A DNA stretch of 33,701 nt from Selenomonadaceae bacterium (GTDB taxonomy: Bacteria; Bacillota; Negativicutes; Selenomonadales; Selenomonadaceae), in assembly GCA_017470715.1 (NCBI GenBank), contig JAFUYE010000085.1, positions 1-33,701 of the forward strand, read 5' to 3'. The stretch's first letter is position 1; each line of letters begins with the position of its first letter. The notes beneath the pieces are model-generated. The model did no database searches. It was not told where the DNA came from and saw only the letters and a list, made by a program, of their open reading frames with translations. Shown here piece by piece: positions 1 through 2,424 of the stretch. A program made the position numbers and the translations under genes.

Positions 1-1996
1 CAACCTGAGGGTAAACAGTGCCGAATTTGTGTCGACTCGTGCTCGGCGTTTCCAGTCGCGTGTTGTTCAAAAGATAGCTTTCAAATTCGTCGCGATTGTA
101 AAGATTGTACGCAACAATTTCGCCGCTCTCTTTGACGATAATGTAGCCGCCGTCAGCTTCGTCGCGCCCGTTCCAAATTTTTGCGGGTCGCAAGCCCAAG
201 GCAACCGCGCAGAGAAATTTTTTCAGCTTGTGGCGATAAAGTTTCGGGTTGCTGAAATTCAACGGGTTATAATTTTCCAGTATAGTGGCAATGTTCGCGC
301 AGTCGGAAATTCTTTTGTGGTAATGAATCTTCAGCATCGCGGCAAGGATTTTTTCAAACTGCGTATCGATAAACTTCAGGTTGTCCGCAAAAATTTTGTT
401 CGGGACTTCGACGAATTCAAGGCAGGGAATTTTCGCCAAACGTTCCCGAAGACCGGAAGTCGAATTAATTTCTTCGGCAAGTGCGTCGTTCATGTCGGGA
501 ATTTTGAAACGAAAATTCGTCGCCTGCGAAGCGTTTAACAACGTCGGCGGATTGCCTATGTCGGACTTAATCGAGTAGCAACAAATTCTGTCGTAGTTCG
601 TGTACGGGTCGTGAACTTTGACTTCAATGTCGGCTTTGCGATTGGCGGGCGATTTAATTTTCGTCAAGTTCAATGCGTCCATGATTTCTTTTGCGCCGTC
701 AATTTCAAAAGACGAATTACCGCCGTTGTTTATGCCGTGCAAAATTTTTTCCGCCATGTTCGCAAGTTCGTCAGTGTTGATTGTGCAGACGCGGTCATTG
801 TTTAAATAAAGTTCGACAAAATTTTTTTCATTGCGCCGCCGAAATTCCAGCTTGAAAGATTCGTTGTCTTCGCGGATAACTTGCAGGACGGGCAGCCAGC
901 AATCGTCTTTAACGTCGGCTTTGATTTTTCCGTCGGCAAGCAGTCTCAACAACGCGTAAAGTTCGCTCCATTCGCCTTTATTGCCTCTCATCGGTTCAAG
1001 CACGCTCCTTATTTCGGTCGCAATCGCCTCGACAACGTTGACCGAAACCGCGTTGCCGAATTGCTTGTAAAGTTGTGTGTCGGGCAAAATCAATCGAAAA
1101 TCTTCGTCGAAGCCTTGAAGTCGCGCCCATTCACGCGGCGTGAGTTTGCGAATATTTTCCGTGTTAATCGTGCCGTGAATTTTCGTCGTCGGAATCGTGG
1201 AGTGCGGGCGTGCGTCGACGATTAAATTTCGTTCGCGTCCCATGCCGCCGCAAACCAAAGCATTCGACACGCCGTCAAGATTTTTTATTTCGTAGCCGAA
1301 GCCGTTACCTTTCGACTCGTGACGTTGACGGTGCCTGCGAAGAGTTTCCAAATAAACGTCGCTCAAATAATATTTCGCGGGAATCGGCGCGTAGTCCAGC
1401 ACGTCGCAAATCGAAAAAATTTCGTCCGTCGGTGCGGGGAAATTGAAATTTTTCGGCGCAATGTCGTTTCGGAAACACACCAGATAAATTCGTTCGCGAT
1501 TTTGCGCAAGCCCGAAGTCACGGCTGTTCAAAACTTTGGCGAAAACTTTGTAGCCGATTTGCTCAAACGCCGCGCAGATTATTTTGAACGTGCGACCTTT
1601 GTCGTGATTGACCAGCCCTTTGACGTTTTCGCAGAAAATAATTTTCGGCTTGTGACGTTCGCAAATTCGCACAACGTCCAGAAACAACGTCCCGCGACAA
1701 ATGCCGTGATAATCGTCGTCGAAGCCGCCGCGCTTGCCCGCAATCGAAAACGCTTGACACGGGAAGCCCGCAAGACAAATGTCGAATTTGGGAATTTCGT
1801 CCGCGTCAACTTTGGTAATGTCGCCCGCAAATTTATCGCCGAGAGATTTTACGTCGGAAAAATTTGCCGCGTAAGTTTTTCGTGCGGAAGCGTCAATTTC
1901 GCTGACGAAAACGGTTTCAACTTCGTCACCGAAAGCGCGTTCAAAACCTTTGCGAATCCCGCCGATACCCGCGAACAATTCAATCATTTTGTACAT
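1..1996 (-). CDS. Fused C5-cytosine DNA methyltransferase / HpaII-like restriction endonuclease (3' end beyond window)
   Basis: The minus-strand frame from ATG at 1996 has no stop down to position 1, giving at least 665 codons. Residues 1-325 form a C5-cytosine methyltransferase: motif I ELFAGIGG (6-13), the catalytic PCQ loop (C80), ENV (123-125), QNRER (165-169) and GNAV (314-317). After about 20 residues, in the same frame, comes GNKGEWSELYALLRLLADGK (338-357), then a YSIKSD stretch (474-479) followed by a PPTLLNAS-like segment. I recognise these as the HpaII restriction endonuclease family (about 360 residues), so only a short C-terminus should be missing. The likely target is CCGG, inferred from the family. 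An SD-like AGAGGTG precedes the start, and the gene overlaps the 3' end of vsr by 13 bases, so the two are probably translated together. Modification and cleavage are normally separate proteins in HpaII-type systems, so a single chain is unusual. The methyltransferase call is very safe; the endonuclease call rests on remembered motifs. Confidence 0.85.
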   Translation of the reverse strand, partial: MYKMIELFAGIGGIRKGFERAFGDEVETVFVSEIDASARKTYAANFSDVKSLGDKFAGDITKVDADEIPKFDICLAGFPCQAFSIAGKRGGFDDDYHGICRGTLFLDVVRICERHKPKIIFCENVKGLVNHDKGRTFKIICAAFEQIGYKVFAKVLNSRDFGLAQNRERIYLVCFRNDIAPKNFNFPAPTDEIFSICDVLDYAPIPAKYYLSDVYLETLRRHRQRHESKGNGFGYEIKNLDGVSNALVCGGMGRERNLIVDARPHSTIPTTKIHGTINTENIRKLTPREWARLQGFDEDFRLILPDTQLYKQFGNAVSVNVVEAIATEIRSVLEPMRGNKGEWSELYALLRLLADGKIKADVKDDCWLPVLQVIREDNESFKLEFRRRNEKNFVELYLNNDRVCTINTDELANMAEKILHGINNGGNSSFEIDGAKEIMDALNLTKIKSPANRKADIEVKVHDPYTNYDRICCYSIKSDIGNPPTLLNASQATNFRFKIPDMNDALAEEINSTSGLRERLAKIPCLEFVEVPNKIFADNLKFIDTQFEKILAAMLKIHYHKRISDCANIATILENYNPLNFSNPKLYRHKLKKFLCAVALGLRPAKIWNGRDEADGGYIIVKESGEIVAYNLYNRDEFESYLLNNTRLETPSTSRHKFGTVYPQV

Positions 1997-2424
1997 GAGC
2001 GCACCTCTGATTTTCGACGGGCGACAGTTTCGGAAATTATGCGGACACATTCGTCGACGTTCGATTTAATTTGCTTGCCGAAAAAGCGCAGAACCGTCCA
2101 ACCTTCCGCCGACAAATGTTCGTTGACTTCGCGGTCGCGGGCAATGTTGCGTTCAATTTTCGGAATCCAAAAATCTTGCCGGCTTTTGAAATCGTGCTTG
2201 CGATTTTCCCAGTCGAAGCCGTGCCAAAATTCCGAGTCGCAGAACACGGCAATTTTCAGCCGCAGAAAAACCACGTCGGGGCAGCCGAAAATTTCGCGGA
2301 CATTTTTGCGGTAACGAAAACCCGCGTGCCACAGAGCCCGCCGCAATTTCAATTCAATCTGCGAATCTTTGTTGCGGACATGTTGCATGTTTTTTCGCCG
2401 TTGAGCGGGTGTTAATCTGTCCAT
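1984..2424 (-). CDS. vsr: Very short patch repair endonuclease Vsr
   Basis: This 146-residue protein has the usual Vsr length and order: an N-terminal MQHVRNKDSQIELKLRRALW segment, the CPDVVF stretch with the metal-binding Asp, FWHG, and a WxxKIxxNxxRD-like block (WIPKIERNIARD), ending with GWTVLRFF. Vsr nicks next to T:G mismatches that arise when 5-methylcytosine deaminates, and so protects methylated sites from mutation. It sits directly upstream of, and overlaps by 13 bases, the C5-methyltransferase fusion, which is the usual partnership. The ATG at 2422-2424 follows a strong GGAAGGAG Shine-Dalgarno sequence, and a sigma-70-like promoter lies upstream at 2454-2482. HpaII-type systems are known to carry a vsr gene, which supports the HpaII reading of its neighbour. 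Confidence 0.93.
   Translation of the reverse strand: MDRLTPAQRRKNMQHVRNKDSQIELKLRRALWHAGFRYRKNVREIFGCPDVVFLRLKIAVFCDSEFWHGFDWENRKHDFKSRQDFWIPKIERNIARDREVNEHLSAEGWTVLRFFGKQIKSNVDECVRIISETVARRKSEVRSCTK

Follow-up and report, generated by a model that had tools for sequence, protein, structure and literature searches.

The window analyzed here is the whole of contig C55 (33,701 bp) of its genome. An earlier note on this DNA had described a frame free of stops from 1996 to 1, and this was borne out: the minus-strand frame 2..2050 reads open for 683 codons, with no stop up to the contig end. With the start of the methyltransferase taken at 1996 (MYKMIELFAG), the fused methyltransferase-endonuclease ORF occupies 2..1996 on the minus strand and runs open into the contig end; because the window is the entire contig, the 3′ end of the gene is missing. 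Its first part (residues 2-329; 1010..1993, minus strand) belongs to the C5-cytosine methyltransferase family by its match to PF00145 (E 4.7e-91, 306 bits against a cut-off of 22). The motifs PCQ, ENV and QxRxR define this family, and the window protein carries PCQ at 79-81, ENV at 123-125 and QNRER at 165-169, followed by GNAV at 314-317, in columns that are invariant or nearly so across 64 aligned fused proteins. About five more residues than in M.HhaI follow PCQ, at residues ~94-101, which form the lowest-confidence part of the fused-chain model. As the earlier note had described, HpaII-like sequence comes after GNAV, a short linker (LEPMRG) leading to NKGEW.

The second part (residues 339-663; 8..982, minus strand), which lacks its last residues at the contig end, belongs to the HpaII endonuclease family by its match to PF09561 (RE_HpaII; E 3.1e-90, 303.5 bits against a cut-off of 25). 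The match runs from profile position 1 to 344 out of 359, which leaves the C terminus about 15 residues short. Columns for D, D and SxKS are invariant in 49 aligned endonucleases, and PADLOC models concur (MTase_II plus REase_II). The two profile matches confirm the fusion that the earlier note had proposed. With R and M domains within one open frame, the ORF qualifies as Type IIC: the gene is a fused chain of a methyltransferase and an HpaII-like endonuclease, both activities being predicted. By analogy with the family only, its specificity would be CCGG. A structure model of the fused chain (pLDDT 87.6, pTM 0.63) contains two confident domains whose relative placement is unsure. For the endonuclease half, sequence comparison at E up to 1 returned no relative of solved structure, and HinP1I, the best Foldseek match (E 0.013, TM 0.24-0.32), was set aside as too weak. 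No known RNA elements reached gathering scores in the window.

Upstream of the fused gene, and overlapping its start by 13 bases, lies a gene for a Vsr mismatch endonuclease (1984..2424, minus strand; TIGR00632, E 3.9e-42). Enzymes of the Vsr family act in the repair of T:G mismatches that arise from deaminated 5-methylcytosine.

Distribution and origin of the fusion

The earlier note had suggested a potentially new layout. The fusion itself is real; the layout is not unique, since both domains were present in 119/119 other relatives among the best 120 of 8000 scored in a protein search, the window itself being the 120th. Seven among these best 120 are publicly named "HpaII family restriction endonuclease". 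The search admitted only proteins 0.55-1.75 times as long as the query, and by this length filter it cannot tell how common split systems are. Within the genus of the window, the fused frame was found in 14/66 genomes; across the loci L001-L104 it was found in 19/104, 16 of them distinct. Loci taken as duplicates on the strength of an agreeing contig or agreeing coordinates (L005, L006, L007, L018, L020, L064, L098, L100, L105, L111 and L119-L121), were left uncounted.

A quick tree of the endonucleases with 213 rows (130 fused, 83 split), from which endonucleases shorter than 230 residues or scoring below 150 bits were left out, gave 19 changes between the fused and split states, at least 13 of them forced by starred branches, although long branches make its details unsure. 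Fifty-five rows, the window's included, form one clade (clade A; SH-aLRT 100). As clade A is a single lineage, its genes are not independent fusions; the 11 that were first aligned are 64-88% identical.

The split relatives in the genus (L002, L003 and L010) have adjacent M and R genes in which the M stop overlaps the R start (ATGA). This overlap reads CTTGAATGA or a near copy, and the same place in fused clade A genes reads CTTGAACCnATG or a near copy. In two other comparisons the break looks even simpler than in clade A, namely fused L099 (GGATATGCC) against split L076 (TGATAATGCC) and fused L051 (TTGGAAATGG) against split L048 (TTAGAGAATGG). No fused gene beside L051 was found among 299 genomes of the family of its genome, 14 of which gave strong matches. 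Plasmid and phage collections yielded 7 and 6 records, respectively, with relatives at 27-36% identity.

Several further arrangements were observed among these loci. In L007/L024, the methyltransferase half is 88.6% identical to that of the window (2-1996) and the endonuclease half only 50.3%, a mosaic divergence that hints at an exchange at the junction. Contigs classed as viral (L094-L104, including L099) carry HpaII-type systems, one of them fused. A second, weaker C5-methyltransferase match follows the endonuclease gene in L028, L031, L045, L076, L090 and L097. In the split systems L011, L025, L034, L038 and L040, the Vsr gene stands after R, not before M.

The junction block and the inner ATG

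The junction contains a Shine-Dalgarno-like block, TAAGGAG (1005..1011, minus strand), embedded in the coding frame as the rare codons ATA AGG, and an in-frame ATG (Met336; 989..991, minus strand), a predicted internal start that occupies the position of the separate endonuclease's start codon in split relatives. Both elements are kept in all 14 distinct genes of the clade with DNA sequence, and the clade A genes first aligned all (11/11) have ATA and AGG there. In ten ORFs of the window, AGG accounts for 1.5% of the 401 Arg codons; in fused genes, a count that includes the 11 aligned genes, it accounts for 7.2% of 513. Among the 281 invariant columns of these 11 genes, 61 use one codon throughout; only three of the 61 use a codon of ≤15% usage, and two of these three are the adjacent ATA AGG pair. 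The six-codon window 329-334 ranks top of 614 for synonymous conservation, and for seven or eight codons the best window starts at 327 and overlaps with it; since these genes are related by descent, columns were compared with other columns of the same genes.

Anti-SD pairing, computed over the 19 bases upstream of every Met codon, points to the same site. The best linker Met has the strongest pairing in its own gene in 16/16 distinct fused genes, and in 14/16 it beats all 122 pooled control Met codons. In all three genes found later, the linker Met was again the strongest (controls as strong: 0/8, 0/4 and 0/6). At the protein level, this Met occupies -3 in all but one of the clade A proteins (46/47), the exception having it at -4, and the residue after it varies within clade A (A, R, T, K, N or S). 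In the other clade, a linker Met is present in 63/70 scored linkers and absent in 7; one of these seven, P0065, is a mis-parse, which brings the Met-less linkers to 6/69. The linker count as a whole leaves out P0114, P0119 and P0120. A ribosome-binding block and a start codon conserved beyond protein constraint, as are looked for in a gene within a gene, are both found at the junction.

The distance from TAAGGAG to the ATG is 13 nt in clade A and 8 nt in L051, L054, L070 and L099. At nine of the eleven window starts inspected the SD spacing is 5-11 nt, the other two having no SD core. At 13 nt, initiation at the inner ATG of clade A is likely weak, or else the block does something else. Internal initiation at this site is predicted, and free endonuclease in some amount is a probable product of the fused gene.

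Two other readings of the junction deserve consideration. The first, which we regard as unlikely, is that of a plain bifunctional enzyme made as the full chain only, which methylates as a monomer and cuts as a dimer, the Met and the SD-like block being a relic or a protein constraint and the G-tract described below being noise. Control by assembly has been proposed for single-chain (Type IIC) enzymes in section 14 of a published article (PMC12707154), some fused proteins have no linker Met, and Met336 lies within a conserved LEPM context, all of which would fit such an enzyme. Against it, the rare ATA AGG pair stayed fixed in all of the first aligned genes while most synonymous sites drifted (61 of 281 columns kept one codon), the linker Met is kept in 47/47 clade A proteins despite its variable neighbor, and long G runs were found only in clade A, at one site, when fused and non-fused regions were compared. 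The second reading, to which we assign a rather low probability, holds that ribosomes pause at the SD-like block and do not initiate there, so that the methyltransferase can fold before synthesis of the endonuclease begins. It draws on the same conservation at the junction and on the 13-nt spacing in clade A, which is poor for initiation, but it leaves the kept ATG unexplained, as it does the 8-nt spacing in the four genes named above, where the block resembles the retained start region of a split gene.

The 3′ G-tract and the frames of relatives

The contig end (1..10, minus strand) falls just upstream of the place at which 13/13 relatives of the clade have a tract of G7-G13; the tract itself lies outside the window. 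In 10/10 clade A genes whose DNA reaches the site, G7-G13 occurs 935-986 bases into the endonuclease part, and three later clade A genes have G9, G13 and G9 at 971, 971 and 991 of that part. In all 13 clade A genes with DNA covering it, the tract precedes the invariant last strand of the endonuclease. A structure model of the L004 endonuclease (pLDDT 93.1, pTM 0.89) puts GGG in the turn that leads into the last long strand. G runs stay at 5 or below in the other fused genes (5 distinct) and in 90 endonuclease regions that are not fused, some of them partial, and the 33.7 kb window contains no G or C run longer than 5.

Five of the 13 genes are in frame with the terminal strand (L004, L015, L017, L024 and L158) and eight are out of frame (L014, L016, L019, L021, L023, L074, L167 and L171). 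When 47 clade A proteins were scored by script, 16 were in frame, 10 in the second frame and 10 in the third, with 11 unscored; P0013, one of the latter, was assigned to the second frame by eye. The resulting counts of 16, 11 and 10 are about equal (chi-square p 0.43). The cleanest allele pair is L158 (in frame) and P0003 (out of frame), identical (100%) over 657 aa and then following different frames of the same DNA. Further clean pairs of in- and out-of-frame alleles are L015/P0021 (99.8%), L016/P0015 (99.7%) and L017/P0028 (98.9%). Over the stretch shown, the partner's tail matches letter for letter what this downstream DNA encodes in the other frame for L158/P0003, L015/P0021 and L016/P0015, and for L017/P0028 it does so with a few changes. 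L014/P0016 (98.4%) was dropped as a clean pair owing to another frame change upstream of the tract. A long in-frame homopolymer with in- and out-of-frame alleles, the hallmark sought in a phase-variable gene, is seen here in relatives of the window gene, whose own contig stops short of the tract; the alleles come from metagenome assemblies, in which long homopolymers are error-prone.

The strand at stake is strongly conserved. Its terminal N and R are invariant in 49/49 aligned in-frame endonucleases (alignment A3, which left out the out-of-frame clade A alleles), and it is kept in 82/83 split-system tree rows (72 by script and 10 by eye). Out-of-frame alleles lose this conserved NxQxRF strand, a loss that would be expected to stop cutting. 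P0009, nested in clade A, is in frame without a tract, which is likely a loss, and P0040 shows no GGG.

A 75-base query from L004 was used to look for the missing end of the window's gene. Its best match, 41 bases at 93% (E 5.8e-11, against E 0.1 for the second best), lies at the extreme end of another contig of this genome, C102. The last bases of C102 read IDLNLQIRFKNNPRVD-stop. The end of the fused gene thus seems to lie at the end of C102, with the assembly apparently breaking where the tract is expected. The window's genome has two other contigs, C30 and C31, that start in G/C runs (20 and 21, respectively). From its relatives, we infer a tract in the allele of the window too.

G runs of this kind are not confined to the fused gene. 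Searches for G10 k-mers gave 29 hits in the window's genome, 282 in genome G003 and 0-7 in 14 genomes of other families searched, with at least one hit in 23/24 genus members searched. Seventeen such loci (among L131-L157) were viewed; eight frames were scanned and seven had a Pfam match, namely GT92 glycosyltransferase, WbqC, TylF methyltransferase, flagellin, GNAT acetyltransferase, RTX-repeat and DUF1919 proteins. These loci may represent a large phase-variable repertoire.

Given how common G10 runs are in the genus, the tract could be neutral, and one explanation, to which we give little credence, is that it is a by-product of genus-wide G-run bias or of assembly error with no regulatory meaning. 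The spread of G10 hits through the genus, the susceptibility of homopolymers to assembly error and the existence of a clade protein that does without the tract (P0009) would all be expected under it. It is harder to reconcile with a tract at the same site in 13/13 genes of a clade whose first 11 members are only 64-88% identical, with a 33.7 kb window devoid of such runs, and with three frames filled about equally, as slippage predicts. Slippage without selection at the tract is a further possible reading. Finally, that the fusion is a frameshift or lost-stop artefact of the window's assembly has virtually no probability: only a few bases at the junction separate the fused gene from split relatives in the genus, but the counts of relatives with both domains and of genus genomes with the fused frame refute it, and the joining of two frames by sequencing error, which the earlier note had raised, is excluded in practice by a linker of the same length (±1 residue) in 47/47 scored clade A proteins.

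Proposed mechanism and comparison with known systems

The earlier note made the good point that a chain that both methylates and cuts needs internal control. More interesting are two features beyond that note: the conserved junction with its RBS-like block and ATG, and a 3′ G-tract in relatives that sets the frame of the endonuclease end alone. The reading that we favor, and consider fairly probable, is that of a fused gene in whose relatives frame slippage at G7-G13 is predicted to switch restriction while methylation likely stays constant, with, less surely, an inner start. Slippage would shift the frame of the endonuclease's last strand and so turn restriction on or off, and methylation would likely remain constant whatever the tract length. 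With less confidence, TAAGGAG and the ATG at the junction would let ribosomes start inside the gene and release free endonuclease; of the two products of this one gene, the long chain would then methylate and the short one cut. The T:G mismatches left by deaminated 5-methylcytosine would be repaired by Vsr. The fuller picture of a self-governing gene, with M always on, an end G-run that flips only restriction and a pre-fusion inner start that yields a second, free endonuclease, is offered more tentatively, as somewhat short of an even chance.

Type II systems must keep cutting behind methylation. In the fused gene the order of parts would take care of this: with M first and the tract at the far 3′ end of R, slippage would only disarm or rearm the nuclease and leave the genome protected. 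If true, this would provide a cheap population bet-hedge between phage defence and DNA uptake. Furthermore, recurrent fusion with retained start signals would offer a natural series of two enzymes merging without losing separate dosage. We would regard as new the combination, in a C5-type fusion, of a predicted inner start with a tract at the end of R.

The closest known system is the HpaII R-M family itself (PF09561 plus PF00145, often with Vsr), which comprises the same two enzyme families as the window gene; split relatives have the gene set vsr, M, R in this order, and the HpaII system of H. parainfluenzae presumably has its own vsr gene. In the window, by contrast, M and R form one chain, and further additions in clade A are the block at the junction and the G-tract at the 3′ end.

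An engineered counterpart, RM.Eco29kI, is described in a paper published in 2011 (PMC3039593), in passages of which natural m5C fusions are remarked upon as something that could exist. Like the window gene, it combines a C5-methyltransferase and a Type IIP endonuclease in one polypeptide, and according to the same passages both activities survived the joining; unlike the window gene, it is man-made, places R before M and uses a GIY-YIG nuclease (PMC3039593). An unpublished observation mentioned there by the authors, that removal of the R stop with M's inner Met codon left in place gave M alone, is a useful precedent for starts inside such fusions (PMC3039593). The open-access literature searched, mostly as listings and passages and with REBASE and subscription journals outside its scope, named no natural m5C M-R fusion.

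The window gene is not of Type IIG, a class with adenine-type methyltransferases, as its methyltransferase is of the C5 type; all 12 natural enzymes in the table of the RM.Eco29kI paper have the adenine type (PMC3039593). Phase-variable Type IIG enzymes are established, as passages on the Campylobacter cj0031 group (PMC6321876) and on H. pylori JHP1272, in which homopolymer tracts set the frame (PMC3936762), describe. These are single-chain R-M enzymes like the window gene (PMC6321876; PMC3936762). They differ from clade A in being Type IIG; the only long G run found in clade A is in the last part of R, and M is therefore predicted to be untouched.

Internal in-frame starts, too, are established among defence genes. 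Work on Rpn reports, from experiment, a shorter C-terminal product made from an internal in-frame start (PMC10327210), and Cas11b is described as being made from an internal start (PMC11899642). Rpn and Cas11b share with the window gene a short C-terminal product from an internal in-frame start, which in the window gene is a prediction only. Unlike theirs, the predicted short product of the fused gene would comprise the entire nuclease domain, kept from what was formerly a gene of its own.
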